Shown: positions 511 to 29,797 of the stretch, one piece after another
How the letters are laid out: every line of letters starts with the position of its first letter
How positions within the stretch are numbered: position 1 is the first letter of the stretch
Assembly (NCBI RefSeq): GCF_000196235.1
Contig: NC_008541.1
Span: 1,426,001 to 1,490,000, forward strand
Direction of reading: 5' to 3'
Source of the DNA: Arthrobacter sp. FB24
GTDB lineage: Bacteria; Actinomycetota; Actinomycetes; Actinomycetales; Micrococcaceae
DNA: 64,000 bases
The notes under the pieces: generated by a model
The model's database searches: none
What the model was told of the DNA's origin: nothing
What the model saw: only the letters and a program-made list of their open reading frames with translations
Position numbers and translations under genes: made by a program

Positions 511-3500
511 ATGAAACGGCCATTTCGATCCGTGACGCCCAAATCGGAACCGACGCCGAACCGTCGGCGTGCGGGGATTCTCCGAGCCACCGCTTTTGCG
601 GTGGCGGGTGCTGCTTTGGTGGCTGGTGCGATTATTTATCCGGGGTTCAAGACCACTGAGGTGGAGTTGAACGACGGCGGTGTGTGGGTGGTCAGTAAGA
701 CGAAGAATGCTGTTGGCCGGTTGAATTATCCGTCGCGTGTCCTCGATGGTGCGGTGACGCCGGCGAGTACCACGTTCGATATCCTGCAGAACTCCGGGAA
801 TGTCTTTGTTGACGATGAGACCGGCTCGACTCTGAATCAGGTGTCGCCGGCGAATATGCAGCTGGGCGGGGATAAGCAGTTGCCGGGTTCGGCTGATGTC
901 AGTTTCGGTTCCGCTGTGATTTCGGTGACGGATGCGGCCAAGGGCAAGGTGTGGGCTCTTTCGCCGTCCACGGTGAACGGCTTCGATGAGGAGGCTACTG
1001 AGCCTGCTTTGGTTGGTTCGGAGGGTTTGGTGTCCGCTGTCGGGACCGATGACCGGATTTACAGTGCGGATCCGAAGACGGGTGTTGTGACTGTGACGGC
1101 TGTTGATGCCAATGGTGAGGTGGTGTCTTCGGAGTCGGGCACGTGGGACGGGCTGAAGGGTGCCGGTGATCTGCAGCTGGCGGTGGTGGGGGATAAGCCT
1201 GTGGTCCTGGATGCGGGGCGGGGGAAGTTGTTCCTGCCGGGCGGTCGTGGGCTGGATTTGGAGAACGCGCGGGATGCGAAGTTGCAGCAGTCCGGTCCGG
1301 CGTCGGATGTTGTTGCGGTGGCGACGCGGAAGGCGTTGTTGAAGCAGCCGTTGGATGGTTCGGCGGCGAAGACGGTGTCCTTTGACGGTGAGGGTGTTCC
1401 GGCGGCTCCGGTGCAGTTGGGCGGGTGTGTTCATGCGGCGTGGTCGGGGGCGAATAAGTATGTCCGTGACTGTGTGAATGATGCTGATGATAAGAACGTT
1501 GAGGTGCCGAAGGCGAGTGCATCGCCGTCGTATGTGTTCCGGGTGAACCGGGACCTGGTGGTGTTGAACGATGTGAACTCGGGCAATGTGTGGCTGGTGA
1601 ACCAGAACATGCAGCTGGTCAACAACTGGGACGACGTCGTCCCGCCGCAGCAGACCTCGGATGACGCGGACAAGGATTCCGCGGACGAGGTGCAGCAGAC
1701 CGTGCTGCCGGACCGGACCAAGCCCAACAGTGCGCCGGTTGCCAAACCGGACACCTTCGGAGTCCGCGCAGGCAAGACCGCCATCCTCCCAGTCCTGGAC
1801 AACGACACCGACCCCGACGGCGACATCCTCACGGTCCGCGCCCCGGATGCGATCAGCTCCGGGCTCCTAGCCCCTATCTACGGTTCCACCGGTTTCCAGG
1901 TCAGCGTACCGGCGGACAAGACCGGCTCCGAGACGTTCAGATACGCTGTGGACGACGGCCGCGGCCTCAGCGCCTCCTCCGATGTCACCCTCAACATCAT
2001 TCCGCCGGGGGAGAACTCGGCCCCCCGCCGGAAGCCGAACCGGAACACCACCCTCGTAGTGCAGGCCGGCAAGCTCGTCAGCCAGAACATCCTGACCGAC
2101 TGGATCGACCCGGACGGCGACGACCTTTACGTGGTCAGTGCCAGCGGCAGCGACCCCCGCGACCAGGTCAAGGCCCGGCCGGACGGCCTGCTCAGTTTCC
2201 AGGACGCCGGCTCCGAGCCCGGCCGCAAAGTAGTCACCGTGACGGTCTCCGACGGCCAGTCCACTGCCGAAGACAAAGTCACCGTAGACGTGCGCGCCCC
2301 GGGAGCGCTTCCGCCGATCGCCAACGCAGACCACATTGTCGCCGTCGCCGGCGTGGACACGGTTATGGCGCCGCTGAAGAACGATTCGGACCCGCAGGGC
2401 GGAGCGCTCCGTCTCGCGCAGGTCACTCCCGACGGAAACTCCACTGCCACCATGGGAGCGGACCAGCAGACCTTCACCTTCAACTCCACTGCCGAGGGCG
2501 CACACTATGTGACCTACCTCGTGACCAACGGCCCGGCCAGCGCACAGCAACTGGTACGCGTGGACGTCGTTCCCGGCAACGGCGACGGCGCCCCGGTCGC
2601 CGTCCGCGACACCGCCTTGCTGCCCAGCGGCGGCAATGTGCTGGTGGACGTCCTCGGCAACGATTCGGACCCCTCGGGCGGGGTGCTGGTGGTTCAGTCC
2701 GTCACCGCGGCCGAGGGCCAGCCGGTCAGCGCATCGGTGCTGGACCACTCGGTCATCAGGATCACCGACATCCGGGCAGAAGGGCAGCTCAACGTCAAGT
2801 ACACGATTTCCAACGGTAAGGCCTCCGCCAGCGGGGACATTGCCGTGCTGGTGGTTCCAGCACCGGCCAAGCTCCAGGCCCCGCAGGCCAAGCCGGACGA
2901 GGTGTCGGTCCGGGCGGGCGACGTTGTCACCATTCCTGTGCTGGAGAACGACACCGACCCCAACGGCGGCAAGCTCACCCTTGAACCCGAACTGGCGCAG
3001 AAGCCCGACGACGCCGACGGCCGCATGTTCCGCTCCGGCGGGACCCTGCGCTTCATCGCCGGGGACGTTCCCAAGACTGTCTATGCGATTTACAAGGTCA
3101 CCAATGAATCCGGGCAGTCGGACTCCCAGCAGGTCACCATCCGCATCCGCGCCCGCGATGACGAACGGAACACCCGCCCCGAGCCGAAGAACCTGACCGC
3201 ACGCGTGGTGGCCGGCATGGTGGTGCGGATGCCGGTGCCCTTGGACGGGATCGATTCCGACGGCGACTCCGTGCAGCTGATCGGCGTGGACAAGGCTCCG
3301 GCAATGGGAACGGCCGTGGTGAAGGACGGGTACCTCGAGTTCACTGCTACCGCAACGGCCGCCGGCACCGACACCTTCACCTACCGTGTCCGGGACCGGA
3401 TCGGCGCCGAGAACACCGGCACCGTAATTGTCGGCATTGCCCCGCCGGAGGCCAACAACCAGAAGCCCATTGCGGTGGATGACGCCGTGGATGTCCGGCC

Positions 3501-13035: not shown

Positions 13036-14007
13036 ATGACCATGACAACTGAGCAGGCCGACTGGTTTGCAGGAACGTTCGAGAAGCTCGTTGCCAATGT
13101 AGGACAGGCTGTGCTGGGCAAGTCCCACGTCATCCGCCTGACCTTCATGGCCATGCTCGCCGAAGGGCACGTCCTCTTCGAAGACGCACCGGGCACCGGA
13201 AAGACTTCCCTGGCCCGTGCCTTGGCGGCCACGGTGCAAGGCTCCAACAACCGCATCCAGTTCACTCCGGATCTTCTGCCGTCGGATGTCACGGGCGTGA
13301 CGATCTATGACCAGAAGACGCAGAAGTTTGAGTTCCACAAGGGCCCCATCTTCAACAACATCGTGCTCGCGGACGAAATCAACCGGGCCTCGCCCAAGAC
13401 GCAGTCCGCGCTCCTGGAGGTCATGGAGGAATCCCGGGTCACGGTGGACGGCACCACGTACGAGGCCGGCCGCCCGTTCATGGTGATGGCCACCCAGAAC
13501 CCGATCGAGCAGGCGGGCACCTACCGCCTGCCCGAAGCCCAGCTGGACCGCTTCCTGATCAAGACGTCCATCGGCTACCCGGACCACGCGTCCACAGTGC
13601 AGCTGCTGGGTGGCGCCAACCTCAAGGACCGGTCCAAGCAGCTCTCCGCGGTCATCACCACCCAAGCCATCGCTGACATGGCTGACCTCGCCGCCACCAC
13701 CCACGTGGACACCGCTGTGCTGGAGTACATCTCACGGCTGTGCGAGGAGACCCGCAACGCCCCGGAGACCCGGCTCGGCGTCTCGGTCCGAGGTGCCCTG
13801 GCCATGGTCCGGGCGGCCAAGGTCTGGGCCGCAAGCCAGGGCCGCAACTTCGTCCTGCCGGACGATGTGAAAGACCTCGCCAGCGTGGTCTGGACCCACC
13901 GCTTTGTGATGGACCCGGAAGCGGAATTCTCCGGCGCCACCGCGGAGGCCGTGCGGGCCCGCGTTCTGACGGACGTCGCTGCCCCGCAGCAGCGCGCCGC
14001 CGTCTAG
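13036..14007 (+). CDS. MoxR-family AAA+ ATPase
   Basis: 323 aa. Walker A is APGTGKT (Lys at residue 56). Walker B is LADEINRASPKTQ (Asp at about 113), the diagnostic MoxR signature. The arginine-rich lid region follows (YRLPEAQLDRF). MoxR ATPases act as chaperone-like remodelers and are usually paired with DUF58 and transglutaminase-like proteins, as here. A purine-rich RBS (GGAAGAGG) sits before ATG 13036. The 89-base gap after the giant gene may hold a promoter (TAGACT at about 12969), but no convincing -35 was seen. The likely role is ATP-driven assembly or activation of an envelope complex built with the DUF58 protein. The substrate is unknown. Confidence 0.93.
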   Translation: MTMTTEQADWFAGTFEKLVANVGQAVLGKSHVIRLTFMAMLAEGHVLFEDAPGTGKTSLARALAATVQGSNNRIQFTPDLLPSDVTGVTIYDQKTQKFEFHKGPIFNNIVLADEINRASPKTQSALLEVMEESRVTVDGTTYEAGRPFMVMATQNPIEQAGTYRLPEAQLDRFLIKTSIGYPDHASTVQLLGGANLKDRSKQLSAVITTQAIADMADLAATTHVDTAVLEYISRLCEETRNAPETRLGVSVRGALAMVRAAKVWAASQGRNFVLPDDVKDLASVVWTHRFVMDPEAEFSGATAEAVRARVLTDVAAPQQRAAV

Positions 14008-15392: not shown

Positions 15393-17989
15393 GCTCCGCG
15401 CCCGCACTCCGCCAGCGCAGGCAGCCCGCGCAATCACAACCGTCCGCCTTCAGCGACGGCCAGCCCGCCTGGCATTTCGCGCTCGACGCCGGGGCCCTGG
15501 TTGTCCTGCTGGGGCTGGGGGTCCTGGGCTTCAGCCTGAGCTTCGGCGGCGACCCCTACTATTTGATCGCCGGATTCGGCGGCATCCTGCTGGGCCTTGG
15601 CATTGCCGCGGCCAACGCCCACTTCAGGCTCGGCACGCTCATCACCGCCGCCGCCGTGCTCGGTTCCTACCTGGTTCTTGGAACACTGCTCGCCGTGCCG
15701 GACGCGGCCATCGCCGGCTTTGTCCCGACGCTCGAGTCACTGCGGACCCTTCTGCTCGGCGTCGTCTTCGCCTGGAAGGACATGCTCACCGTGGGTGTAC
15801 CGGTAGGCACCGCCGGCGGGATGCTCATTGTTCCGTTCCTCAGTGCCCTCCTCACCGCGCTGGCCGCGGGACTCATGACCTGGCGGCTGAAGAGCCCGTA
15901 TTGGCCGCTCCTGCCCGTCCTGGTGCTCTTCGTGACCGGCATAGCGTTCAGCACCAACGCCGGCTTCCTCAACGTGGAGCGGGGCATCTCCCTCACGGTG
16001 GTGGCCGTGGCGTGGGCAACCTTCCGCCGCGACGCACACCGGCGCAGCGACACCCGCAAGGTGTCCGTCAACCGCCCTGAGTCGGATGCCGCCACCGCCC
16101 GCCGCGCCAAAGTGCGCCGGCTCGGTTCCGCCGCCGGCGTCATCGCCGCCTGCGTTGCCATCACGGCTGTGGCTTCGCCCCTTGTCACCGCCGGCGATGA
16201 CCGGACGGTCCTTCGAAACGTGATCGTTCCGCCGTTCGATCCCAAGGACTACATCACCCCGCTGGCGAGCTTCCGTAACTTCGTCAAGGACAAGAAGGAC
16301 GACAACCTGTTTGTGGTGAAGGGCCTGCCACGGGACGGGCGCGTCCGGCTCGCTGCCCTTGACGCCTTCAACGGCACCAACTACAACATGGACCCGGACA
16401 GCTCCGGCAACTTCAGCAAGGTGGGGGATGCCAAGTCCCTGAACACCCTGGCCGGCTCCGACGGTATTGTGCCCAGCAACGACTACACCCTGGACATCAC
16501 CATCGAGGACTACCAGGGATACTTCCTGCCGGGCGGCCGCCGCACCACCGGGATCAGCTTCACCGGCGAATCGTCCGGTGCAGCGTCCGGACTCTACTTC
16601 AACTCCGGAACGGACACCGCAGTCACCACCAGGGGCCTCGCGAAAGGCGATGCGTACAGCGTCCAGGTGTCCGACCCCGCCAAGCTCGAACATGGCCAGC
16701 TGACGCAGTACGACTTTGCCAAGGTGGCGCTCCCGGACGCCGCTGAAGTGCCGCCTGTGGTCGGTTCACAGGCCAACGATTTGTCAGCCGACGCTCCGAC
16801 GGCAATCGACCGCGTCCGGCAGATCGAGGCGCATTTCCAGAAGAAAGGCGCGTTCAGCAACGGCCTGATCGACGAAGGCCAGCTGCCCAGCGTCTCAGGG
16901 CACGGCTCGGCACGCATCCGCAGCCTGCTGACCGCCAAGCAGATGCTGGGCGACGACGAACAGTACGCGGTGGCCATGTCCCTGATGCTCCGGCACCTGG
17001 GCATCCCGTCACGCGTGGTGATGGGCTTCTACCCGGACCCCAAGAGCCCGGAAAACGGCGCCGGCGAAGTCAAAATCACCGGCAAGGACGTCCACGCCTG
17101 GGTTGAGGTCGCTTTCGACCGCGTCGGCTGGGTGTCATTCGACCCCACGCCGCCCAAGGACAACGTCCCGATTCCGCCGGACCCGGAAAACAAGTCCAAG
17201 CCCAAACCGCAGGTCCTGCAGCCGCCGCCTCCGCCGCAGGAGCCGGCAGACCTGCCGCCGGACTCATCCCCGGACGCACTGGACGCTGACCAGAAGAAGA
17301 ACAATCCCTGGCTGTTCTGGGGCCCCATCCTCGCGGCACTTGGAATTGCCCTGATCCCCATCGGCATCCTGGCGCTGCCGCTGCTGCTCATCGCGCTGCT
17401 CAAGAGCCGGCGCCGCAAGGCCCGGTTCTCCGACGGGCACCCAGCCCAGCGTGTCGGCGGCGGCTGGAACGAAGTGGTCAGCCTCGCAACGGACATGGGC
17501 GCCGCCATCGATACCCGGGCCACCCGCCGGGAGTCCGCCGTCGTCCTGGGTGAGGCATTTCCGGGAACGGCGGGGACCACCACCCTGCTGGCCCGCCGCG
17601 CTGATGCCTCCATTTTCGGTGCCGGCCAGCCGAGCGAAGCGGAGGTCCAAGAGTACTGGACCATTGTGGACGGCTCGCTGAAGGAGATGACAGCTACGGT
17701 CGGTTTTTGGAGACGGCAGGCTGCCCGGTTCTCGCCGCGCTCCCTCCTGGCAGACGGCCGGACCGCACTCAGCCTCCGCGGTTTCAGGCTTGTCCGGACG
17801 GCAAAAGATGATCCCGCGGGTAGGGTGGTGGACGGTCCGCCCCCGGCGCCCGGCCAGGTTGCCGGCCAGCCGGATGTCCCGGCAGCAACGCCGGCTCCCG
17901 GACAGGCACCAACACCCGCACCATCCGGACCGGAGAATGAACACACCGTGCTGAGGCGCGATCTGAGAGAGAACCGCAACGAACCATGA
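15389..17989 (+). CDS. Transglutaminase-fold multipass membrane protein with catalytic Cys position occupied by Asp
   Basis: 866 aa. The N-terminal third has about six membrane segments (residues about 25-200). An extracytoplasmic region holds a transglutaminase-like domain, then comes a proline-rich linker, a further membrane hairpin (about 638-672) and a cytosolic tail resembling DUF4129. The usual active-site motif is GDCEQ(Y/F)A. Here it reads GDDEQYA, so the nucleophilic Cys is Asp (residue 523). The His (HAWVEV, residue 569) and Asp (SFDPTP, residue 585) of the triad are kept. The protein is therefore predicted not to have classical transglutaminase or protease activity and may be a scaffold or binding pseudoenzyme. 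It overlaps the DUF58 gene upstream and the RDD-FHA gene downstream by four bases each. This matches the TGM position in PFNA-type clusters. Confidence 0.88.
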   Translation: MSSAPALRQRRQPAQSQPSAFSDGQPAWHFALDAGALVVLLGLGVLGFSLSFGGDPYYLIAGFGGILLGLGIAAANAHFRLGTLITAAAVLGSYLVLGTLLAVPDAAIAGFVPTLESLRTLLLGVVFAWKDMLTVGVPVGTAGGMLIVPFLSALLTALAAGLMTWRLKSPYWPLLPVLVLFVTGIAFSTNAGFLNVERGISLTVVAVAWATFRRDAHRRSDTRKVSVNRPESDAATARRAKVRRLGSAAGVIAACVAITAVASPLVTAGDDRTVLRNVIVPPFDPKDYITPLASFRNFVKDKKDDNLFVVKGLPRDGRVRLAALDAFNGTNYNMDPDSSGNFSKVGDAKSLNTLAGSDGIVPSNDYTLDITIEDYQGYFLPGGRRTTGISFTGESSGAASGLYFNSGTDTAVTTRGLAKGDAYSVQVSDPAKLEHGQLTQYDFAKVALPDAAEVPPVVGSQANDLSADAPTAIDRVRQIEAHFQKKGAFSNGLIDEGQLPSVSGHGSARIRSLLTAKQMLGDDEQYAVAMSLMLRHLGIPSRVVMGFYPDPKSPENGAGEVKITGKDVHAWVEVAFDRVGWVSFDPTPPKDNVPIPPDPENKSKPKPQVLQPPPPPQEPADLPPDSSPDALDADQKKNNPWLFWGPILAALGIALIPIGILALPLLLIALLKSRRRKARFSDGHPAQRVGGGWNEVVSLATDMGAAIDTRATRRESAVVLGEAFPGTAGTTTLLARRADASIFGAGQPSEAEVQEYWTIVDGSLKEMTATVGFWRRQAARFSPRSLLADGRTALSLRGFRLVRTAKDDPAGRVVDGPPPAPGQVAGQPDVPAATPAPGQAPTPAPSGPENEHTVLRRDLRENRNEP

Positions 17990-19656
17990 CGCATGACGCC
18001 GAGCGCTGCCAGCGCTGCCAGCAGTTGATCCGTCCCGGAGCGACGTTCTGCCCTGCCTGTGGTGCCCCGCTGAGCAACCGGGCCGCCCGCAATGACCGCA
18101 ACATAGACCACTCGCAGCGGGAGCTGATGGATCGGGCCGCCGCGCACGGCAGCCCGATCCCCGGTAGTATCCCCGTAGTGCAGGCCCGGACGGAAGCCGC
18201 CGGACCCGGCGCTTACGAACAAGCCGCCAGCCCCGGCGCCTATGGACAAACGGTCCAGGCACAGGGCGGGCACGTACAAGGGGGAGGTACCGGAATGGGT
18301 GGCAAGCTGGACGTGGTTCCCGCGGCGGCCGGACGACGCCTGGGCGCCGCCGTGCTCGACTGGGTGGGACCGGCCGCGCTTCTCATCGTGATGTTCACCA
18401 TTGGATTCGCCAGCATCACGCGCACCCAGAGCGGCGGCTTCATCATCTACGACACGGGGTTGCTGGTACTGCTGGGCGGCATCGCCGTCGGCCTCACCGT
18501 GGTCTACATCCTGGTGCTTCTCGGAATTGAGGGCCGCTCCGGCAACACGATCGGCAACCGGCTGATGGGAATCCGCAGCACGGACCAGGACGGCTACGCC
18601 CCGGGCGCCGGCGCCCTGTTCCTGCGCGGCCTCATCACCGGGGCAGGGATCCTCCTGACCGTAGTGGCGGCAGTGTTCGTGGTGGTTTTCAAGTGGTTCG
18701 AGGCGGCCCTGTGGATCCTCGCACCGCTGGCCCTGCTGGGTGTCGCCTGGGCCTGCGTCGTGGTGGTGTCCAATTCCTGGGACAAGAACGGCAAGCGCAG
18801 CGGCTGGCACGATACCGCAGCCAAAATTCTCATGTTTGATGTCAACGCCGGCCGGAACCCCCTGACTACCGGGGGAATCCAGGGCCCCTACAGCTTCGCG
18901 CCGCTGGACCTGCCCCCCGTGCAGCAGGTCTCTTCGCCCGTTGCGGGTGCGGCTGCAAGGCCGGCCCAGGCCGTGCCCGTTCAAGTTCCGGAGCCGCAGC
19001 AGGGGTTCAACCAGCCTGTCGCCATCCCGCAGCCACCCCTGAACCCGAACCAGTGGCAGCCGCCTGCCATGCCCCAGCCGTTGGCGGGCGCCGCCGTATC
19101 TGCCTCCGCCCCGTTTGCGGCGCCCGCGCCGTCTGCGGCGCCCGTCCCGGTCCGGGCGCAGCCCGCACCGGACCCGGTCCCGACCAGGACCCTGCCGGAT
19201 CCGGCCGTTCAGAACCCTGCAGTTCAGAACCCGGCCGTTCAGATGCCCCCGCAGGGGTGGGCCCTCCATCCCGACGACGACCACGACCGGACGCAGATGC
19301 GGGGACAGACCGTGCCGGCGCCGGAGGCCGTGCTCCGGATCAGGCTGGACGACGGCCGCGACTTCGAGCTTGACCAATCGGTACTCATCGGCCGGAATCC
19401 CGGCGGCCTCCCCGGCGAACACGTCGCGCAGCTGCTGGCTGTGGCCGATCCCGGCCGTTCCATCTCCAAGACCCACCTCCACCTTCGGGCGGACAACGGG
19501 GGAATCTGGGTCACCGACCGCAACTCAACCAACGGCAGCGCCGTCACCACTCCGGACGGCATCCGAACTGCTTTGCAGGCCGGGGAACCCGCCTACGTAC
19601 GCCCAGGGTCCACCGTGCACTTCGGTGACCGCACCTTCCACCTAGGACAGGCATGA
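17986..19656 (+). CDS. Zinc-ribbon, RDD membrane domain and FHA domain protein
   Basis: 556 aa. The N-terminus is a zinc ribbon (CQRCQQ...CPACG). An RDD domain with several membrane spans starts near residue 113 (GRRLGAAVLDWVG) and runs to about 265. A long Pro/Ala/Gln-rich linker follows (about 300-440), with a small repeat of V-Q-N-P-A near 405. A C-terminal FHA domain occupies about 449-545, with the phosphothreonine-binding residues intact (IGRNPGG, SKTHLHL, NSTNG). This suggests a membrane protein whose cytosolic FHA reads phosphorylation by the kinase encoded downstream. Its start overlaps the preceding stop and its stop overlaps the PP2C start. Confidence 0.87.
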   Translation: MTHDAERCQRCQQLIRPGATFCPACGAPLSNRAARNDRNIDHSQRELMDRAAAHGSPIPGSIPVVQARTEAAGPGAYEQAASPGAYGQTVQAQGGHVQGGGTGMGGKLDVVPAAAGRRLGAAVLDWVGPAALLIVMFTIGFASITRTQSGGFIIYDTGLLVLLGGIAVGLTVVYILVLLGIEGRSGNTIGNRLMGIRSTDQDGYAPGAGALFLRGLITGAGILLTVVAAVFVVVFKWFEAALWILAPLALLGVAWACVVVVSNSWDKNGKRSGWHDTAAKILMFDVNAGRNPLTTGGIQGPYSFAPLDLPPVQQVSSPVAGAAARPAQAVPVQVPEPQQGFNQPVAIPQPPLNPNQWQPPAMPQPLAGAAVSASAPFAAPAPSAAPVPVRAQPAPDPVPTRTLPDPAVQNPAVQNPAVQMPPQGWALHPDDDHDRTQMRGQTVPAPEAVLRIRLDDGRDFELDQSVLIGRNPGGLPGEHVAQLLAVADPGRSISKTHLHLRADNGGIWVTDRNSTNGSAVTTPDGIRTALQAGEPAYVRPGSTVHFGDRTFHLGQA

Positions 19657-20630
19657 ATCCCCAGCCGGCAGCCGCCACCTCCGCAACGGGCAGGGAGCCC
19701 GGACTCCAACTGAGCTGCGGCTACGGTACAGACCGTGGCCTCCGCCGGGAACTCAACGAGGACTCCTTCATTGCGTCCGATCCCGTGTTCGCCGTGGCGG
19801 ACGGCATGGGAGGCCACGAAGCGGGCGAAATCGCCAGCGGAATCTGCGTGCGGACACTCGCCGGAATGCCGCAGCTGGCCACCGGGGAGAGGACAGCCAC
19901 GGCCGCCGTCGTCCAGCAGTACCTGGTCAGCGCCGACGAACGGATCCGCACCGCCACCGGGTCCCGTGCCGGCACCACCCTCTCCGGAGTAGTGGTTGTT
20001 GAGCAGATGGGTGCGCCGTACTGGCTGGTCATGAACATTGGCGACTCCAGGACCTACCGGCTGAGCCAGGGCGAGTTCGCGCAAGTCACCGTTGACCATT
20101 CCGAGGTCCAGGAGCTTGTGGACGCCGGTGAAATCACCAGGGAACAGGCGGCGGTGCACCCCCGCAGGCACGTGGTGACCCGCGCCCTGGGCACCGGCGA
20201 CGAGACGGAAGCCGACTACTGGCTGCTGCCCGTCGAGGAAGGCGACCGCATCATGATCTGCTCCGACGGGCTGAACGCCGAGCTGACGGACGATCACATG
20301 TTCCGCATCCTGAGCACCGTCGGCCACCCCCAGGACGCCGTCGACGCGCTGATCCAGGCCGCGCTGCGCAGCGGCGGTCGGGACAACGTCACCGTGATCG
20401 TTGTGGACGCCAAAAACGTAATGAACGACGCCGGAACGGACACCGCGCCCCGGCCCGCCGCGGGCGTCGAAGACGAGGACACCCTGCCCCGCGCCCAGGT
20501 GCCGGACAGTACCGAAGTGGACACCGAGGAGCTTCCCGAGGCTCCCGGTGCCGTCCTGCCCGCGGACGCCCCGGACTCCGCGAACGATTCCGTGACCGAC
20601 ACCGAGGGCCGCCACGATGGTCTCAAGTAG
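19653..20630 (+). CDS. PP2C-family Ser/Thr protein phosphatase
   Basis: 325 aa. PP2C metal-binding motifs are present in order: N-terminal ELNEDSF, VADGMGGHEAGE, NIGDSRTYRL, MICSDGLNAEL and RDNVTVIVVD. The catalytic domain spans about residues 15-255, followed by an acidic, probably disordered tail. Unlike PstP it has no obvious transmembrane anchor. It would reverse phosphorylation by the kinase two genes downstream, probably on the FHA-partner proteins of this cluster. It overlaps the RDD-FHA gene by 4 bases and the next FHA gene by 14 bases, which is tight translational coupling. Confidence 0.93.
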   Translation: MNPQPAAATSATGREPGLQLSCGYGTDRGLRRELNEDSFIASDPVFAVADGMGGHEAGEIASGICVRTLAGMPQLATGERTATAAVVQQYLVSADERIRTATGSRAGTTLSGVVVVEQMGAPYWLVMNIGDSRTYRLSQGEFAQVTVDHSEVQELVDAGEITREQAAVHPRRHVVTRALGTGDETEADYWLLPVEEGDRIMICSDGLNAELTDDHMFRILSTVGHPQDAVDALIQAALRSGGRDNVTVIVVDAKNVMNDAGTDTAPRPAAGVEDEDTLPRAQVPDSTEVDTEELPEAPGAVLPADAPDSANDSVTDTEGRHDGLK

Positions 20631-22413
20631 CTACACCCCGGGCACCTGGCTTGGCGTGGTCCGGGCGGGAACCGCGGTGCTGCTGCCGCCCGCGACGCCA
20701 CACGCGCTTGTGGACTCGCTCTGGGAACTTCTGGGCGGAGAGCCTGAGGTCCACGAAGTACTTCACGCGGTGACCAGTGCCTCCTCCGGCTCGCTGGCGC
20801 AGATTCCCTGGTTCGGCATTGTGGACTTCCGGGAATCCCTGCGGGTCTTCCTCCGCGGCGACATCGAGCTGACGGCACACCTCGCCGCGGACGAAGTGGA
20901 ATTGAACGGCAGCGACGTCACCACGTGGACCGAGCGGCGCCTCAGCGAACCGGAATGGTACAGAGTGTCGGTTCCGGGCAACGCGGCCGGTGCAGCTGAA
21001 CTCCCGCTCGGGGAGGGGGTTGTCCTGCTGCAGAGCCTCACTGCGGGCCGTGTTCCCGGTGCCAGGCCGTCCCGGCCGGCAGCTCCCGTCCTTGAGGTGC
21101 CCCTGACGGAGCTGCCCTCGCCGCAGGAGCAGGACTCCGTCCAGGTCCCGGTTGTGGTGCCTGTCGAGGTCCCGGCATCCGAACCGGTCCGCGGCGTGCC
21201 CGCTGAAGCCGTGGCTGCTGATGGCGTGCCCCCTGAAGCCGTGGCTGCTGATGGCGTGCCCCCTGCCGAAAGCGGTGCCGCGGCAGAACACGGTGCATCC
21301 GCCGAAACCGTTATAGGCATACCCGACGAAGACTTCGAAAATGCCGATGACGGAGTCACGGTGCTGCCGGATGACACAGGTTCGGAGCAGGCAGGATGGG
21401 ACGACGCCGTGGCGGACGTGCCCGGTGCCGCCGCTCCTGCTGAATCGCAGGATCCGGCGCCCGCGAACGAGCTGACTGGAAGCTACGACCACCTGTGGGA
21501 AAAGACCGTGGTGCGGCGCATTGAGGACGCCGCGGTGCGGGACGAGCCCGAGGACGAACCTGCCGCGGCCGATGCAGAGGCGGCGGTGGCGACGGAGGAA
21601 GACAGACCGGAAGAAGCCGTCGACGTTGCCGGTGACCAGCAGCCGACGGCAGCGCAGGAGCAGCAGCCTGCCCCCGTGCAGCCCCTCATCCCTGCGGATC
21701 AGGGCGCCCTGATCGACTCCGTTCCCTGGAACACCGGTGGCGAAAGGCCGGCCCGGACCTCCGGGCCGCCGTCGTTCGTTCCGGCATCCCCGGGTGTCGG
21801 ATCCCATGAGATGCCGGACCGCGGCAGCCCGGCCGCGTTGCCGCCGGCTCTCGAAGGCGACCACGACGGCCAAACGATCATGAAGAGCGACCTCGCCGGG
21901 CTCGGGACCGCACCTCAGGTCCACGCCCCGGCCGGCGGAAGCGAACCGGCCACCGGGCCCATGGTCCTGGCCCGCGTCTGCCCGCAGGGCCACGCCAACC
22001 CGCCCACGCATTCGCAGTGCGCCGGCTGCGGCATGGCGCTGGGGCAGGACGCCGTGCAGGTCCGGAGGCCGCGGCTGGGCCGCGTCCGGGTTTCAACCGG
22101 TGAACTGATCGACCTGGACCAGTCCTTGGTGATCGGCCGCCAGCCGTCGGTTTCCAGGGTTCAGGGCGGAGGCATGCCGCGGCTCGTCCAGGTGGCCAGT
22201 CCCAGCGGTGACATCTCCCGGTCCCACGTTGAGGTCCGCCTCGAAGGCTGGCACGTGATGCTGTGCGACCTCAAGGCCACGAACGGCACCCTCCTGGTCC
22301 GGGAGGGTCAACCGCCCAGGCGCCTCGCCCAGAACGAAATGGCCATTCTTCTTGACGGTGATATTGCAGAACTCGGCGATGACGTGTCGCTACGGTTCGA
22401 GGAGATTCTATGA
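20617..22413 (+). CDS. FHA-domain protein with zinc-ribbon-like motif
   Basis: 598 aa. The N-terminal domain (about residues 1-125) is not recognised. It is followed by a long acidic Ala/Pro/Glu-rich region, a Cys motif (CPQGHANPPTHSQCAGCG, about 454-471) and a C-terminal FHA domain (about 487-595) with canonical residues (IGRQPS, SRSHVEV, ATNGTLL). The linker contains a 30-base tandem repeat encoding GVPxEAVAAD (21193-21252), with a partial third copy. The gene starts inside the PP2C gene and its stop overlaps the kinase start (ATGA). It is probably a substrate or adaptor of the neighbouring kinase. Its function beyond phosphopeptide binding is unknown. Confidence 0.85.
   Translation: MVSSSYTPGTWLGVVRAGTAVLLPPATPHALVDSLWELLGGEPEVHEVLHAVTSASSGSLAQIPWFGIVDFRESLRVFLRGDIELTAHLAADEVELNGSDVTTWTERRLSEPEWYRVSVPGNAAGAAELPLGEGVVLLQSLTAGRVPGARPSRPAAPVLEVPLTELPSPQEQDSVQVPVVVPVEVPASEPVRGVPAEAVAADGVPPEAVAADGVPPAESGAAAEHGASAETVIGIPDEDFENADDGVTVLPDDTGSEQAGWDDAVADVPGAAAPAESQDPAPANELTGSYDHLWEKTVVRRIEDAAVRDEPEDEPAAADAEAAVATEEDRPEEAVDVAGDQQPTAAQEQQPAPVQPLIPADQGALIDSVPWNTGGERPARTSGPPSFVPASPGVGSHEMPDRGSPAALPPALEGDHDGQTIMKSDLAGLGTAPQVHAPAGGSEPATGPMVLARVCPQGHANPPTHSQCAGCGMALGQDAVQVRRPRLGRVRVSTGELIDLDQSLVIGRQPSVSRVQGGGMPRLVQVASPSGDISRSHVEVRLEGWHVMLCDLKATNGTLLVREGQPPRRLAQNEMAILLDGDIAELGDDVSLRFEEIL
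21193..21264 (+). repeat. 30-bp in-frame tandem repeat in FHA-protein linker
   Basis: Two near-identical 30-base units (21193-21222, 21223-21252) and a partial third encode GVPAEAVAAD-GVPPEAVAAD-GVPP. They lie in low-complexity linker sequence and may vary in copy number by slippage. Confidence 0.9.
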
Positions 22414-24155: not shown

Positions 24156-24200
24156 CCGGCAGTCCTGAAGTTAAGCATTGACCTTTAAGGAGGCACGGAA

Positions 24201-24905
24201 ATGGGGGATCTAGCAGTAGATTTCTGTGGCGAATGGTATGAGCCGTCGGACGAGGACGTCTTCAACATCGGACGCGAGGGCGACCTCGAAGTGGACGACA
24301 ACCCGTACCTGCACCGGCGGTTCCTCCAGATCGCCCGGTACGACGGCATCTGGTGGCTCAGCAACGTGGGGAGCATGCTCTCAGCCACGGTGGCGGACGG
24401 CACCGGCGGGATGCAAGCCTGGCTTTCACCCGGGGCCCGGATTCCGATCGTCTTCAGCCACACCAACGTGATCTTCACCGCCGGCCCCACCACGTACGAG
24501 TTCGCCGTGCACCTGAAAACCCCCTCCTTCCGCCAGGAGGCCCCCGATGACGAAAGCGGCGGGGACACCACCATCGGGCCCGTGGTATTCACTGATTCGC
24601 AGAAGGCCCTCATCGTTGCCCTCGCCGAGCCCATGCTGCGGCGCGACGGCACCGGGTTCAGCGCCATCCCGTCGTCGGCGGATGCCGCCAGGACGCTCGG
24701 CTGGGCGCTGACCCGGTTCAACAGGAAGCTGGACAATGTGTGCGACAAACTTGACCGGGTCGGCGTTGCGGGGCTGCGCGGCGGCGGTGGAAAGCTGGCC
24801 ACCAACCGCCGTGCCCGGCTTGTCGAGCACGCCGTGACGTCACACCTGGTCACCGCTGCGGACCTGCACCTGATCGACAAGATGAAGGGGGCAGACGAAG
24901 GATGA
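24201..24905 (+). CDS. Degenerate FHA-like domain plus helical/winged-helix-like C-terminal domain
   Basis: 234 aa from ATG 24201, preceded by a strong RBS (AAGGAGG at 24187-24193). The N-terminal half resembles an FHA fold: FNIGREGDLEVDD, then PYLHRRFLQI, then WWLSNVGS. However, the phospho-binding Ser of the usual SxxH is missing (NPYLH) and the NG turn is altered. The C-terminal half (about 125-230) is helical with a winged-helix flavour (PSSADAARTLGWALTRFNRKLDNVCDKL). Its stop overlaps the start of the EssC-like ATPase (ATGA), so it is probably a dedicated accessory or regulatory partner of that ATPase. No named family was recognised. Confidence 0.7.
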   Translation: MGDLAVDFCGEWYEPSDEDVFNIGREGDLEVDDNPYLHRRFLQIARYDGIWWLSNVGSMLSATVADGTGGMQAWLSPGARIPIVFSHTNVIFTAGPTTYEFAVHLKTPSFRQEAPDDESGGDTTIGPVVFTDSQKALIVALAEPMLRRDGTGFSAIPSSADAARTLGWALTRFNRKLDNVCDKLDRVGVAGLRGGGGKLATNRRARLVEHAVTSHLVTAADLHLIDKMKGADEG

Positions 24906-27900
24906 AAATCCGACTGACACTGCGCCGGGAACCCGCCGACGCCAAAGACCTCGCCGTAACCGTTGACGGCCTCGCAACGGTGGCGGACATCGCCACCCAA
25001 CTGTGGGCTGCCGATCCCGAACGGCGGGGCACCCAGCCGCCGGAGAACCTGTCGCTCTGCATCGACGAGGCATTCGTCGCCGGCGGAATGCGCGGCAACA
25101 TCCTCAACCGCACGGACAACTTGTTGGAATCCGGCCTCAGGCCCGGGTCCATTGTTTCGCTGAGACAGGTCAGCGAGCAGTTCGCGGCACCGGGTGCGAA
25201 CCGCGGACCCGCAGCGGCGACCCTCCGCGTCCTGTCCGGGCCCGACGTCGGGCAGGAATTTTCGCTGCCCTCCGGCACCAGCTACATCGGCCGGGACCGG
25301 GACGTTGACATCCGGCTGTCGGACCCCATGACCTCCAAGCGGCACGCCCGCATCACCGTGGGGGAAACCGTTGAAATCGTGGACACGAATTCCGCCAACG
25401 GACTCATCATGGACGGGTTGCCGGTCACCCGGGCAACACTGAACTCCTCGGACACCGTGACCCTCGGCGATACCACCATTTCCGTCGTCGGGCTGGGCCA
25501 CCACGGGGGTGCACCGACGTCGCCGCTGGTGGATTTCAACCGCTCGCCGCGCGTGGTGCCGCGTTTCGCCCCGCCCAAGCGCGTACTCCCGGCCGGACCC
25601 AAACGCCAGGAGCACCACCCCTTCCCCTACATCATGCTGATCGCGCCGCTCATGATGGGCGCCATTTTGTTTGCCGTCACGGGCAACGTCCTCTCGGTCC
25701 TTTTCATGATGATGATGCCGCTGTTCATCATCGGCCACTACGTGGACCAGAAGATGCAAAGCAAGCGGGAACGCAAAGAGCAACTCAAGCAGTTCCGCGA
25801 GGCGATGGCGGCGTTCCGCAAGGACATCACCGAGCTGCAACACATCGAGCGGTCCGTGCGCCTCCAGGAAGCTCCGTCAGTCAGCGACACCGTTGATTCC
25901 ATCTACAAGCTGGGACCGTTGCTCTGGACCCACCGGCCCGAGCACAGCGGGTTCCTCGGCCTGCGCTTCGGGCTGGGCACGGCGCCGTCGCGCATTTCCT
26001 TCGACGAGCCGTCCAACAATGAGACCGAAGCTGAATATATGCAGGAAATCCAGGCCTGCCTCAAGCAGTTCCAGGACATCGAAGGCGTACCGATCGTGTC
26101 CCAGCTCCGCTCCGCAGGCGCATTCGGGCTCGCAGGCGCCCGCGGCCTCGTAGACGACGTAGCCCGCGGCATGGTCCTGCAGACCGTGGGCCTGCATTCC
26201 CCGGCCGAAGTGGTGGTTACGGCAATCACATCGGCCAAATCGAGGGAGCGCTGGAACTGGCTCCAGTGGCTGCCGCACGTCGGCTCGGGACACAGTCCGC
26301 TCAGCGGCGACCACCTGGCTGCAGGACCCGCCGGCGGATCCTCCCTCCTGGCCCGGCTGGAGGACCTCATCGACCAGCGCGAGGCGGGCGCCCAGTCACC
26401 GCGTCCCGCGCCGCGGCCCGGCCTCGACGGAGAGAAAGGCGACATCCCCGGCCCGGTGCTGCCCTCCGTGCTGTTGATCGTGGAAGACGACGCGCCGGTG
26501 GACCGCGGCCGCCTGACACGGCTCGTGGAACGCGGACCGGATTCGGGCGTCCACGTCATGTGGGTGGCCACCAGCGTCCAGTCACTCCCGGCCGCGTGCC
26601 GTGACTTCATGGTGGTGGACGGCGACCACGGAACCACCACCGGCCAGGTCCGGCTGGGCCGCCACACTTACCCCGTCAGCTGCGAAAGCCTCGACGCCGA
26701 CCTGGCCACCCAGCTTGCCCGGATGCTGTCGCCGGTCATTGATGTGGGCAAACCCGTGGATGACGACTCCGACCTTCCCCGGGCGGTGTCCTACGTGAGC
26801 CTCATCGGCAAGGACTTCATGGACAACCCCCAGGCGGTGGCGGACCGGTGGAAAGAGAACAACTCCGTCCACGCGACCGCCGTCGCAAACCGCAAGGACA
26901 ACGGCACGCTCCGGGCCCTGGTGGGGTCCAAGGGCATCGAACCGCTGTACCTGGACCTGAAGAACGAGGGCCCGCACGCCCTGGTGGGCGGCACCACCGG
27001 CGCCGGGAAGTCGGAATTCCTGCAGTCCTGGGTCATGGGCATGGCTGCGGCCTACAGCCCGGACCGGGTGAGCTTCCTGTTCGTCGACTACAAGGGCGGA
27101 GCCGCCTTCGCCGACTGCCTGCACCTGCCCCATACCGTGGGCCTGGTGACCGACCTTTCGCAGCACCTGGTCCGCCGCGCGTTGACGTCCCTGCGGGCTG
27201 AACTGCATTACCGGGAGCATCTGCTCAACCGGAAGAAAGCCAAGGACCTCCTGGGCCTGCAGCGCGAAGCGGACCCCGAAGCTCCGCCCTACCTCATCAT
27301 CATCGTGGACGAGTTCGCAGCCCTGGCCACGGAAGTCCCCGAGTTCGTCGACGGAGTCGTGGACGTGGCGGCCCGCGGCCGGTCCCTCGGCCTGCACCTG
27401 ATCCTTGCCACCCAGCGGCCCGCCGGAGTCATCAAGGAAAGCCTGCGCGCCAACACCAACCTCCGCGTTGCCCTCCGGATGGCGGACGAGGACGATGCCA
27501 CGGACATCCTCGGTGTGCCCACAGCGGCGTACTTCGACCCCTCCATCCCGGGCCGCGGCGCGGCGAAAACCGGCCCCGGCCGGATCCAGGGCTTCCAGAC
27601 CGGCTACGCAGGCGGCTGGACCACGGACAAACCGCAGGCACCCCAGATCGACATCGTGGAAATGGCCTTTGGCTCGGGACCCGGCTGGGCCGCGCCGGCG
27701 CCTGAAAAGCCAGTGCGGGAGGAGCCGGCCGGGCCGAACGACATTGCCCGGATGACGGCCAACATCATCAAAGCCGCGGAAGTGCTGTCCATCGCGCCGC
27801 CCCGCAAACCGTGGCTCAACGAGCTGGCCAAAACCTACGATTTCTCCAAGCTTCCCAACCCCAGGACCGATGAACGCCTCCTCCTGGGCGTGGCCGACGA

Positions 27901-29383
27901 CCCGGCACACCAGGACCAGCCCACCGTCTTCTATGAGCCGGACAGGGACGGCAACATGGCCATCTACGGGACGGGCGGTTCCGGTAAGTCAGCCGCGCTG
28001 CGCGGCATCGCCATCGCCGCGGCAGTGACTCCGCGCGGTGGCCCCGTGCATGTCTACGGCATCGACTGCGGTTCGTCGGGACTTAAGATGCTCGATGGGC
28101 TCCCGCACGTCGGCGAGATCATCAACGGCGACGACGTCGAACGTGTCGGCCGGTTGCTGCGTTGGCTGCGCGATGTTGCCGACGACCGCGCTGCCCGCTA
28201 CGCCGAAGTCCGCGCCTCCACCATCGTGGAATACCGGAAACTGGCCAATGACCCGGATGAGAAGCGGATCTTCATCCTGGTGGACGGCATGTCCAACTTC
28301 CGGGAGGCGTACGAATACAGCCGCCTGTCAGCGCTCTGGGACATTTTCCTTCAGCTGGCGACGGACGGCCGGCCGCTGGGCATCCACCTGGTGGTCACCG
28401 GGGACCGGCCCAACGCAGTCCCGGCGTCGCTGCTGGCTTCGATTCAGCGCCGCCTGGTCCTGCGGCTCTCATCCGAGGACGACTACATTTCGCTGGACGT
28501 GCCCAAGGATGTCCTGAGCCAAGCCTCGCCCCCGGGCCGCGGCCTGCTGGGAGGGCACGAGGTCCAGCTTGCCGTGCTTGGTGGCGACTCGAACCTTGCG
28601 CTGCAGGCCCGCGAAGTGCACAAGCTCAGCGAGGCCATGCTGCGCCAGGGCGTGGAAAAGGCACCGCAGATCGAACGCCTGCCCGAGCAGGTGGACCTCG
28701 ACATCCTCCCTGCGGGAACCCGGGACCTGCCGGTCATCGGCGTCGACGACGAGACGCTCCAGCCGGCCGAAATCATGGCCAAGGGACCGCTGCTCGTTGC
28801 TGGTCCGCCGGGTGCCGGCCGTACGGTGGCGCTGGTCACCATGGCCTACGCCCTGCGCCGGTCCAACCCCGGCACCGAACTGATCTACATCGGCTCGCGC
28901 CGGTCCGCCGTCGCGTCGCTGAAGGTCTGGAACCGTGCCCTCGTGGGCGCCGACGACGTCGAAGAGGCAATTGACGGGCTGGTTGACTACTCTTCGGAGA
29001 ACCCCGGCAGGCTGGCCATCTTCATCGAGGGCCTGACCGAGTTCACGGACACCGGCGCCGAGTCCGGCATCGAGCAGCTGGTCACGACGTCCATCAAAGC
29101 CGACCAGTGGGTGGTGGGGGAGTCTGAGACGTCCACCTGGTCCTCCGCATGGTCACTGTCGCAGCCGTTCAAGTCCGGACGGCGCGGACTCCTGATCAAC
29201 CCCGGCGACATCGAAGGCGACAGCCTGCTGAGCACCTCGCTCGGCAAGATCAGTTCCGATTTCATTCCGGGCCGCGGCTACATCGTGGGCCGGGGCAAGG
29301 TCCGCAAGCTGCAGATTGCCCTGCCGCCGGAGAACCGCAGCCAGGCCGATCCGGACCTCAACCGGGTGGGAGCCGCACGGTGA
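24902..29383 (+). CDS. EssC-like type VII secretion FtsK/SpoIIIE ATPase with N-terminal FHA domain
   Basis: 1,493 aa, close to EssC length (about 1,480). The order is a ubiquitin-like or first FHA-like segment (1-95), a canonical FHA domain (about 107-200: YIGRDRDVD, SKRHARI, NSANG), two adjacent membrane spans (about 240-280) and then three FtsK/SpoIIIE domains. Domain 1 is canonical, with Walker A GTTGAGKS (697-704) and Walker B IIIVDEF (Asp803, Glu804). Domain 2 has GTGGSGKS (1023-1030) but ILVDG instead of DE. Domain 3 has GPPGAGRT (1301-1308, Lys replaced by Arg) and FIEG. Domain 1 is probably the main ATP hydrolyser. It would energise export of the WXG100 protein encoded next. Its FHA domain links it to the kinase/phosphatase pair upstream. 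Confidence 0.93.
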   Translation: MKIRLTLRREPADAKDLAVTVDGLATVADIATQLWAADPERRGTQPPENLSLCIDEAFVAGGMRGNILNRTDNLLESGLRPGSIVSLRQVSEQFAAPGANRGPAAATLRVLSGPDVGQEFSLPSGTSYIGRDRDVDIRLSDPMTSKRHARITVGETVEIVDTNSANGLIMDGLPVTRATLNSSDTVTLGDTTISVVGLGHHGGAPTSPLVDFNRSPRVVPRFAPPKRVLPAGPKRQEHHPFPYIMLIAPLMMGAILFAVTGNVLSVLFMMMMPLFIIGHYVDQKMQSKRERKEQLKQFREAMAAFRKDITELQHIERSVRLQEAPSVSDTVDSIYKLGPLLWTHRPEHSGFLGLRFGLGTAPSRISFDEPSNNETEAEYMQEIQACLKQFQDIEGVPIVSQLRSAGAFGLAGARGLVDDVARGMVLQTVGLHSPAEVVVTAITSAKSRERWNWLQWLPHVGSGHSPLSGDHLAAGPAGGSSLLARLEDLIDQREAGAQSPRPAPRPGLDGEKGDIPGPVLPSVLLIVEDDAPVDRGRLTRLVERGPDSGVHVMWVATSVQSLPAACRDFMVVDGDHGTTTGQVRLGRHTYPVSCESLDADLATQLARMLSPVIDVGKPVDDDSDLPRAVSYVSLIGKDFMDNPQAVADRWKENNSVHATAVANRKDNGTLRALVGSKGIEPLYLDLKNEGPHALVGGTTGAGKSEFLQSWVMGMAAAYSPDRVSFLFVDYKGGAAFADCLHLPHTVGLVTDLSQHLVRRALTSLRAELHYREHLLNRKKAKDLLGLQREADPEAPPYLIIIVDEFAALATEVPEFVDGVVDVAARGRSLGLHLILATQRPAGVIKESLRANTNLRVALRMADEDDATDILGVPTAAYFDPSIPGRGAAKTGPGRIQGFQTGYAGGWTTDKPQAPQIDIVEMAFGSGPGWAAPAPEKPVREEPAGPNDIARMTANIIKAAEVLSIAPPRKPWLNELAKTYDFSKLPNPRTDERLLLGVADDPAHQDQPTVFYEPDRDGNMAIYGTGGSGKSAALRGIAIAAAVTPRGGPVHVYGIDCGSSGLKMLDGLPHVGEIINGDDVERVGRLLRWLRDVADDRAARYAEVRASTIVEYRKLANDPDEKRIFILVDGMSNFREAYEYSRLSALWDIFLQLATDGRPLGIHLVVTGDRPNAVPASLLASIQRRLVLRLSSEDDYISLDVPKDVLSQASPPGRGLLGGHEVQLAVLGGDSNLALQAREVHKLSEAMLRQGVEKAPQIERLPEQVDLDILPAGTRDLPVIGVDDETLQPAEIMAKGPLLVAGPPGAGRTVALVTMAYALRRSNPGTELIYIGSRRSAVASLKVWNRALVGADDVEEAIDGLVDYSSENPGRLAIFIEGLTEFTDTGAESGIEQLVTTSIKADQWVVGESETSTWSSAWSLSQPFKSGRRGLLINPGDIEGDSLLSTSLGKISSDFIPGRGYIVGRGKVRKLQIALPPENRSQADPDLNRVGAAR

Positions 29384-29407
29384 GAGTGCCGATGGGCAGG
29401 GCTGCAT

Positions 29408-29451
29408 GGGGAGCGGTGCCCATCGACAGTGACCGGGCCGCGGGATAGTTT
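29408..29451 (+). promoter_or_regulatory. Candidate promoter of WXG100 gene with shared 18-bp element
   Basis: GGGGAGCGGTGCCCATCG (29408-29425) followed after 20 bases by TAGTTT (29446-29451). Sequence and spacing match the element before the second giant gene (6693-6736). Confidence 0.5.
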
Positions 29452-29533
29452 CTAGGTAATGGATCTTCCGGATGAGCCGGGGGCCGCTGGGGATGCCGAT
29501 CGGATCGGGTCCGTTGACTGAAGGAGAAAACTA

Positions 29534-29797
29534 ATGGCTATTTGGGGTGCAGACATTGCTCAGCTCAAGGCGCTCGGTACCAAGCTTCAGGCTGGTTCGT
29601 CCGAGATCGAGAAGGCTAAGTCGCAGCTGACGAAGGCTCTTGACAGCACCGACTGGAAGGGCCCGGACGCGGAGAAGTTCCGCAGCGAATGGTCCGGCCG
29701 GCACGTAACGGACCTGGCCCGCGTGGCCCGGGCGCTGGAAGAAGCCGGCAAGCAGGCCAGCAAGAACGCCGCCCAGCAGGAAGAGGCTTCCCGCTAG
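29534..29797 (+). CDS. WXG100-family type VII secretion substrate
   Basis: 87 aa, slightly short for the roughly 100-aa family. It is predicted as two helices joined by the W-K-G turn (DSTDWKGPDAEKFRSEW, WKG at residues 41-43). RBS AAGGAG lies 7 bases before ATG 29534. It is a single gene rather than an EsxA/EsxB pair, so a homodimer is likely. The usual C-terminal YxxxD/E export signal is absent: the tail after the second helix is short, Ala/Glu-rich and has no Tyr. It lies 150 bases downstream of the EssC-like ATPase with its own candidate promoter and a strong terminator after it. It is likely exported by that ATPase, either as substrate or as a machine component. Confidence 0.93.
   Translation: MAIWGADIAQLKALGTKLQAGSSEIEKAKSQLTKALDSTDWKGPDAEKFRSEWSGRHVTDLARVARALEEAGKQASKNAAQQEEASR

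Follow-up and report, generated by a model that had tools for sequence, protein, structure and literature searches.

A putative T7SSd-like type VII secretion locus of Arthrobacter sp. FB24 joined to a conserved MoxR-DUF58-kinase-FHA gene cassette

Background

The described system closest to the locus presented here is type VII secretion system d (T7SSd) of Actinomycetota, reported as a combination of an EssC-like ATPase, FHA domains, a kinase, a WXG protein and a giant immunoglobulin-like (Ig) protein without Ecc or Ess parts (PMC11217815, Garrett, Higginson and Palmer 2024). According to the T7SSd account in that paper, its giant protein TsdI has an N-terminal signal and a C-terminal membrane helix and is proposed to reach through the wall, a small single-helix protein (TsdH) belongs to the system, and no ubiquitin-like protein was found at any T7SSd locus; MoxR, DUF58, transglutaminase, fibronectin and RDD are not named for it in the main text. 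A second related gene set is the PFNA operon of bifidobacteria, which contains a pkb2 kinase, an fn3 giant protein, a MoxR-type AAA ATPase, duf58, tgm, the phosphatase gene prpC and fha (PMC8430577). The present study concerns an array of twelve genes combining both kinds of content in the window, i.e. the whole analysed stretch of 64,000 nucleotides (C4:1426001-1490000), which is part of the 5.07-Mb genome of Arthrobacter sp. FB24. With a probability of roughly 60%, this locus is read as a T7SSd-like type VII variant, in which an EssC-like ATPase carrying a predicted ubiquitin-like domain and an FHA domain would export WXG proteins under the control of a kinase, a PP2C phosphatase and FHA proteins.

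Results and discussion

Gene content of the locus and comparison with described systems

All twelve genes (Table 1) are located on the + strand between positions 511 and 29797 of the window and are free of internal stops (open reading frame [ORF] check). The first-pass annotation had described them as co-directional and mostly overlapping, which is confirmed by the intergenic distances from the DUF58 gene to the ATPase gene (-4, -4, -4, -14, -4, +45 and -4 bases), the single real gap being the one between the kinase gene and the small FHA gene. Its count of FHA domains, kinase and PP2C held as well, with canonical FHA domains in the RDD protein, the FHA protein and the ATPase (Pfam) and a degenerate one in the small protein (structure model). 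The array, with its overlapping genes, thus encodes a kinase, a PP2C phosphatase and FHA domains of which three are canonical, which suggests that the ATPase may be phospho-switched by the linked proteins. Hereafter, the ten genes for the two giant proteins and for MoxR to the small FHA protein are called the cassette, the presence of which was scored by the transglutaminase-like gene.

Table 1. Genes of the array, with positions in the window, strand and evidence for the assignment (aa, amino acids)
Feature	Position	Strand	Evidence
S1, giant surface protein, 2051 aa	511-6666	+	PF17963 7.8e-87, PF00041 1.8e-30
S2, tandem paralogue of S1, 2041 aa	6821-12946	+	domain search, alignment to S1
MoxR AAA+ ATPase	13036-14007	+	PF07726 6.7e-63 (AAA_3)
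DUF58 (vWA-like) protein, hydrophobic segments	14061-15392	+	PF01882 1.1e-12
TgpA-like multipass pseudo-transglutaminase	15389-17989	+	PF01841 1.7e-20, PF11992 1.1e-16
Zinc ribbon - RDD membrane domain - FHA	17986-19656	+	PF06271 4.3e-10, PF00498 1.8e-5
PP2C (PPM) phosphatase	19653-20630	+	PF13672 8.3e-13
FHA protein, FHA C-terminal	20617-22413	+	PF00498 1.8e-4
Ser/Thr protein kinase, one hydrophobic segment	22410-24155	+	PF00069 3.7e-40
Small protein, degenerate FHA and helical C-terminal domain	24201-24905	+	structure model, alignment
EssC-like ATPase, tandem FtsK-type ATPase domains	24902-29383	+	Pfam FtsK_SpoIIIE in two stretches, model
WXG protein, 87 aa	29534-29797	+	family alignment

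The locus resembles T7SSd in its occurrence in Actinomycetota and in possessing an EssC-like ATPase with a phospho-binding FHA domain, a WXG protein, a membrane Ser/Thr kinase and a giant Ig protein, and EccB/D/E, EssA/B and EsaA are named in neither system. Indeed, counterparts of the WXG100 protein (TsdA), the FHA-bearing EssC-like ATPase (TsdC, judged without the Olsenella uli sequence) and the kinase (TsdD) were all found. Of the novelty that the first-pass annotation had seen in the composite, the joining of two modules stands, whereas the combination of EssC, FHA, kinase, WXG and giant Ig proteins is already that of T7SSd (PMC11217815). These common parts would fit a plain, published T7SSd without any new component, an explanation that is nevertheless rather improbable. 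Eight further genes are present here, coding for a second giant protein, MoxR, DUF58, the pseudo-transglutaminase, the RDD-FHA protein, PP2C and two FHA proteins, and these other genes are fixed neighbours, MoxR, DUF58, transglutaminase, fibronectin and RDD being absent from the T7SSd main text (PMC11217815). Moreover, S1 and S2 lack the C-terminal hydrophobic segment that would correspond to the TsdI helix, a TsdH-like gene was not found among the twelve genes, which are nowhere more than 154 bases apart (the upstream ORFs were not family-searched), and a predicted ubiquitin-like domain is fused to the ATPase, a free ubiquitin-like protein not being found.

Similarly, T7SSe shares with the locus a PPM phosphatase, an extra FHA protein, a kinase and a giant protein, but it belongs to Bacillota and has two WXG proteins, a free ubiquitin-like protein (TseB) and TseK, and its description does not name MoxR, DUF58 or transglutaminase (PMC11217815). 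Concerning PFNA, the kinase, FN3 protein, MoxR, DUF58 and transglutaminase-like protein occur together here too, as judged by domain content and not by sequence orthology; PFNA differs in its gene order, its tgm is a presumed cysteine protease, and its account does not describe a secretion ATPase or WXG gene (PMC8430577). T7SSa (ESX) likewise has an FtsK-type ATPase (EccC) and WXG substrates, and EccC coexists with the same cassette gene in 21 genomes of the family; however, EccB was not found here, the ATPase of the window scores below both EccC cut-offs, and the family's EccC-like ATPases are situated beyond a very long branch. For T7SSb (Ess), neither EssB/YukC nor a score above the EssC cut-off was found. 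Regarding the standard parts, which the first-pass annotation had declared absent, EccB was retrieved from none of 28 genomes of the family (taken as Micrococcaceae), own genome included, the controls being positive (G183, G205 and G302; 3/3), and EssB/YukC from none of nine genomes, own included, with controls such as Bacillus subtilis ringing; YukD (PF08817) gave no match in the own genome. Hence, this claim stands for EccB and EssB by search, and a canonical type VII system elsewhere in the genome was rejected on these three negative searches, EccD, EccE, mycosin, EsaA and EssA not having been searched genome-wide. In the open-access literature (bioRxiv and most subscription papers being outside its scope), no paper among the matches listed connects a type VII ATPase to a MoxR-DUF58-transglutaminase set, and T7SSd is named in PMC11217815 only. 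The kind of system is thus known, but no report of the sharing of the cassette, of the domain fusion or of the loss of the enzyme site was found as far as searched.

Conservation of the gene neighbourhood

Among 100 genomes of the family, this ATPase (at least 60% identity in its main piece) was present in 21, the own genome included and G091 having the gene in two pieces, and a 44%-identical relative was present in two others. The gene order moxR-duf58-tgm-rdd-pp2c-fha-kinase-fha-essC was kept in all 19 loci that were fetched from the 20 other genomes (G091 was left out), although moxR was not seen in the L023 stretch and the RDD gene is split over two frames in L026 and L030. The join of an FN3-MoxR-DUF58-transglutaminase-kinase set with an EssC-like ATPase and a WXG protein, as proposed in the first-pass annotation, is therefore real and conserved. 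The nearest records by ATPase are Arthrobacter oryzae CC159, Arthrobacter sp. SPG23 and Arthrobacter sp. Y81 (96-98% identity), and the WXG gene is in place beside essC in the closest database strains (L123, L124 and L129). Furthermore, 80 named database loci, with flanks of 10 kb at most, were grouped by EssC profile score. Above 2000 bits, at least one of moxR, duf58 and tgm was nearby in 14/14 loci; between 1000 and 2000 bits, at least two of them in 16/37; and below 1000 bits, any of them in 2/29 and two in none. The carriers included records of Promicromonosporaceae, Propionibacteriaceae, Nocardioidaceae, Intrasporangiaceae, Micromonosporaceae, Dermabacteraceae, Demequinaceae and Microbacteriaceae. 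The neighbourhood survey that had been proposed as a check thus found the arrangement conserved in the family, and parts of it also accompany this type of ATPase in further families of actinobacteria. Since the neighbourhood is conserved and cassette and ATPase co-occur, chance adjacency was rejected. As a separate observation, a record named Mycobacterium sp. GA-2829 (L132) contained this ATPase type at 50% identity together with WXG genes and, of the cassette, a weak RDD match alone.

The cassette in genomes with other type VII ATPases

Orthologues of the transglutaminase-like gene scoring at least 540 bits were present in 21 of the 77 genomes without this ATPase or its 44% relative and in both genomes with that relative, the match in G082 being in two pieces. 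Consequently, specificity of the cassette to this ATPase was rejected, as it occurs in 23/79 genomes lacking it. The full set of eight genes, moxR to the last FHA gene, was present in 17 of the 20 loci that were fetched (G069, G070 and G082 were left out), and the remaining three are truncated by the end of the stretch or contig. In some loci (L208, L213, L215 and L216), the gene order was altered. An EccC-like ATPase was located on the opposite strand in 5/20 loci, of which the one tested (L213) passes both EccC cut-offs and another (L208) has EccD alongside; no EssC/EccC-like gene was found in the stretch in 15/20. A search of 80 genomes, which included neither the own genome nor any of the 20 others with this ATPase, retrieved EccC above the TIGR03925 cut-off from 30, among them 21/21 cassette carriers that have no EssC relative. 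In cassette genomes without this ATPase, the type VII ATPase is often unlinked to the cassette.

In total, 43 of the 100 genomes had a detected cassette, namely 20 with this ATPase (the array being seen in all 20, G091 not having been checked), two with the 44% relative and 21 with EccC, and in none without a type VII-type ATPase. The remainder consisted of nine genomes with EccC alone, G091 and 47 with neither at these thresholds; six of these 47 (G040, G050, G064, G067, G077 and G087) carried another EssC-like ATPase of 30-36% identity, three of the six together with a match of 210-222 bits to the cassette gene. Fisher's exact test for co-occurrence of cassette and ATPase, with G091 counted as positive, gave 1.3e-19 for species that are not independent. 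More telling than this value is the joint presence or absence, within genera, of cassettes and ATPases that do not adjoin. Indeed, genus g8 has both in G062, 1.5 Mb apart on one contig, and lacks both in G038. On different contigs, both are present in G004 (g5), G074 (g22) and G075 (g23), and neither is present in G035 (g5), G022 and G094 (g22), or G023, G051 and G095 (g23).

An independent envelope-signalling operon of the PFNA kind, with the ATPase and WXG genes merely inserted at its 3' end and their adjacency functionally meaningless, would agree with the complete arrays in loci without this ATPase, none of which is followed by a co-directional ATPase, and with a bifidobacterial PFNA whose account makes no mention of secretion (PMC8430577). 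This explanation is unlikely, given that the same genomes hold another type VII-type ATPase (EccC in 21/21, the 44% EssC in 2/2) and that cassette and ATPase are jointly absent from other species of g8, g5, g22 and g23, though not adjoining in the species that have both. As the cassette occurs with this ATPase, with the 44% type or with EccC, it looks like an accessory module common to different type VII systems; as it was never detected without an export motor, it would probably control the machine or help to build it. A further-reaching version, which is put forward tentatively and is less probable than the reading of the locus as a T7SSd-like variant, regards the cassette as a type VII chassis, consisting of two giant Ig/FN3 proteins, a MoxR protein acting on a dead membrane pair of vWA and transglutaminase proteins and a kinase-PP2C-FHA switch. 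Such a chassis might plug into TsdC- or EccC-type ATPases, supply the phospho-gate and the wall-crossing part and, with the fused ubiquitin-like domain, fill in for the seemingly missing parts, PFNA being a piece of the same machine. Apart from this, the presence of EccC in family genomes (L213, and L208 with EccD), though EccB was found in 0/28 genomes tested, represents another reduced type VII system.

The ATPase and its N-terminal domain

The ATPase scored 534 bits with the EssC model (curated cut-off 778) and 326 and 279 bits with the two EccC models (cut-offs 509 and 347, respectively). It consists of a predicted ubiquitin-like domain (residues 1-90), an FHA domain (residues 103-197), a hydrophobic segment and tandem FtsK-type domains. 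Residues G130, R131, S145, H148 and N166, which we take to form the phosphothreonine site of the FHA domain, are invariant or nearly so in 39 aligned ATPases. In a quick tree of 42 rows with Shimodaira-Hasegawa-like approximate likelihood ratio test (SH-aLRT) support, the ATPase of the window was placed in a 24-row clade together with the carriers from other families and the Bifidobacteriaceae ATPase L169, and a branch of length 3.27 separated off the EccC-like ATPases of L203, L208, L213, L215 and L216.

The N-terminal 90 residues or so were modelled (AlphaFold2, 39 rows) in the order strand-strand-helix-strand-strand-short helix-strand, which is that of ubiquitin, with a mean predicted local distance difference test score (pLDDT) of 86 for the model and of 75-91 for the blocks of the N-domain. 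In addition, a profile of 21 ATPase N-termini matched a redesigned ubiquitin at an expect value (E) of 4.2e-6 and, more weakly, archaeal modifier proteins (about 0.03), and a YukD search of 296 genomes reached the N-termini of EssC-like ATPases in G306, G259 and G318 (E 9e-4 to 7e-3, below the cut-off). The Bifidobacteriaceae ATPase L169 has the same N-domain. A ubiquitin-like fold of the ATPase N-terminus is thus likely, and kinship with YukD/EccD is possible. According to a 2006 survey, the YukD domains of actinobacteria occur without exception as fusions to a membrane domain of 12 helices. Since a ubiquitin-like protein was reported for none of the T7SSd loci in the T7SSd account (PMC11217815), the fused domain would be one answer, i.e. 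a candidate for the missing part.

As for a canonical type VII system elsewhere, the genome contains a second, lone FHA-FtsK ATPase of 1368 residues (C4:3024022-3028128; L006:9023-13129), which scores under all three type VII cut-offs (EssC and both EccC), and cassette genes were not seen by eye around it among the listed ORFs of at least 250 aa.

WXG proteins and WXG-domain fusions

The W-x-G motif is invariant in the alignment of the WXG family (13/13), of which PF06013 matches 11/13 members and misses the window's own protein. The WXG gene directly follows essC in 12 of the 19 fetched relatives. The WXG profile gave 108 matches spread over 21/21 genomes with this ATPase, none in either genome with the 44%-identical ATPase and weak ones (E 5.7e-6 to 7.9e-4) in 5/77 genomes without either ATPase. 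At least 74 ORFs from 10 + 60 fetched stretches, a subset of all profile matches, carry the WXG domain; at least 62 of them, from 21 genomes, have at least 280 residues with the domain N-terminal. The genes for these fusions are scattered, and the C-termini matched calpain-type Peptidase_C2 (6), PGAP1-like (8), DUF2515 (3) and DUF6973 (1) models; smaller numbers matched further models of lipases and alpha/beta hydrolases, and many matched nothing. The own genome encodes such fusions in frames C4:4503029-4504552, 4267397-4269277 and 3238713-3240164.

Several observations on WXG genes stand apart. An identical copy of the WXG protein is encoded at C4:4622819-4623079 (L053:8820-9083), alone among unrelated genes, and identically scoring pairs of copies, one of which adjoins essC, were found in 6/21 genomes with this ATPase, the own genome included. 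A separate canonical WXG100 protein (C4:846880-847242; L057) reaches 69 bits with PF06013 and is not listed by the local WXG-family profile. When two canonical WXG proteins were used as queries, no match was obtained in the 20 cassette loci from genomes without this ATPase.

A phospho-regulated secretion machine as the best reading

The best interpretation of the locus, which we infer from gene content and conservation, is that of a phospho-regulated secretion machine. In such a machine, the kinase would phosphorylate Thr residues that are bound by the FHA domains of the ATPase, the RDD protein and the FHA protein, and PP2C would reset this phosphorylation. The MoxR ATPase may work on the membrane pair of DUF58 protein and pseudo-transglutaminase, the N-anchored giant Ig/FN3 proteins may extend into or past the cell wall, and the WXG protein and the WXG-lipase and WXG-protease fusions would be the substrates. 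If right, this reading would link the literatures on the bifidobacterial PFNA operon and on type VII secretion, which are unconnected among the open-access matches listed, supply a candidate for the ubiquitin-like component that T7SSd was reported to lack, name a shared accessory module of type VII systems and draw attention to WXG-lipase and WXG-calpain proteins as a family that is probably exported.

Several results weigh against this reading. Firstly, the WXG gene is not beside the ATPase in 7 of the 19 relatives, including all four of the same genus and three of g19, being located elsewhere there; also, in 25/62 cases (8.9 expected), the WXG domain of a fusion had its best match in the small WXG protein of the own genus, an affinity that is confounded, as shared ancestry could explain the match. 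Secondly, moxR, duf58 and tgm were all unseen at 21 of the 37 moderately distant ATPase loci, some of which are short contigs. Thirdly, the lack of a co-directional ATPase after the array in the 20 loci from genomes without this ATPase concerns stretches of which 19 reach the last FHA gene and extend at least 3.2 kb past it, one contig ending earlier. Fourthly, nine genomes with EccC lack a 540-bit match to the cassette gene, among them G080 (g32) and G001, the latter having a match of 357 bits. Lastly, the N-domain of the ATPase is only rarely recognised as YukD by Pfam, namely in 2/21 sequences (best 2.6e-4) and in 1/39 of a wider set (0.043). Its profile-profile comparison with the ubiquitin-like domains of EccD gave a probability of 26%, though aligned end to end over 83 columns (0.1% for the FHA control), and a fold search with the model retrieved FHA alone among the matches listed.

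The MoxR-DUF58-transglutaminase core

The combination of MoxR with DUF58- and TgpA-like partners points to an AAA+ chaperone that may act on a membrane pair. By eye, Walker A and Walker B of the MoxR protein are intact, and a recognisable DxSxS metal site is missing from DUF58 across the aligned sequences. The transglutaminase-like protein carries TgpA_N and Transglut_core domains (Pfam), and the catalytic Cys is replaced by Asp. Among 75 cassette or ATPase-linked proteins, four of which come from loci with only a distant ATPase, this position is occupied by D (64), E (5), S (4) or Q (2) and never by C, in contrast to control paralogues from other MoxR-DUF58-TgpA operons of the own and five related genomes (Cys in 5/6, Ala in one). 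The transglutaminase label of the first-pass annotation has to be dropped in this respect, and an active transglutaminase or cysteine protease was ruled out; both active sites of the membrane pair appear to have been lost. One such other operon is located in the own genome at C4:1310500-1319500 (L253); it has the same three-gene core as the cassette but keeps the catalytic Cys, and no further cassette genes were matched in that 9-kb stretch.

The RDD and transglutaminase-like proteins had been proposed in the first-pass annotation as possible replacements for missing membrane subunits. Pore subunits formed by the pseudo-transglutaminase, DUF58 and RDD proteins, standing in for EccB/EccD/EccE or EssA/EssB/EsaA, would be consistent with the absence of EccB and EssB by search, with overlapping genes upstream of the ATPase and with an enzyme site lost in 75/75 proteins, as expected of a scaffold. 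However, the same proteins coexist with EccC systems, in one case with EccD adjoining (L208), and many Microbacteriaceae loci have this type of ATPase but none of these proteins in its vicinity, making such a role doubtful. The original proposal is weakened by the transglutaminase-like gene in 23/79 genomes lacking this ATPase, and a cassette that also occurs without it points to a shared accessory module and not to subunits specific to it.

Giant surface proteins, small FHA protein and minor observations

S1 and S2 (about 2050 residues each) have the same plan, with an N-terminal hydrophobic segment, some ten repeats of the Ig/cadherin kind and three FN3 domains, S1 being unassigned up to about residue 400 (Pfam); a simple hydropathy scan detected the N-terminal segment only. 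They are 97-99% identical at residues 101-300, 77% and 87% identical in the flanking hundreds and 22-64% identical beyond residue 400, with shared exact DNA runs of 327, 280 and 176 bases, which looks as after a recent gene conversion. A comparable N-terminus is missing in five of six other S pairs, the L263 pair being 71-100% alike throughout, and two S genes upstream of the cassette were also present in 6/8 relatives fetched for that comparison.

The kinase lacks a PASTA domain in the Pfam listing. The fourth FHA domain, that of the small protein, has no Pfam match, but its model matches FHA structures in a fold search. The helical C-terminal half of this protein is strongly conserved (19 rows), with invariant L-G-W, R-K-L-D, V-C and other residues, and has no Pfam match either; the matches listed in the fold search were all FHA, with none to the helical end, for which a winged helix is a guess. 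Downstream of the array, the window contains two SAM-IV riboswitches on the + strand (51703-51817 and 53286-53401), with about 1.5 kb between them.

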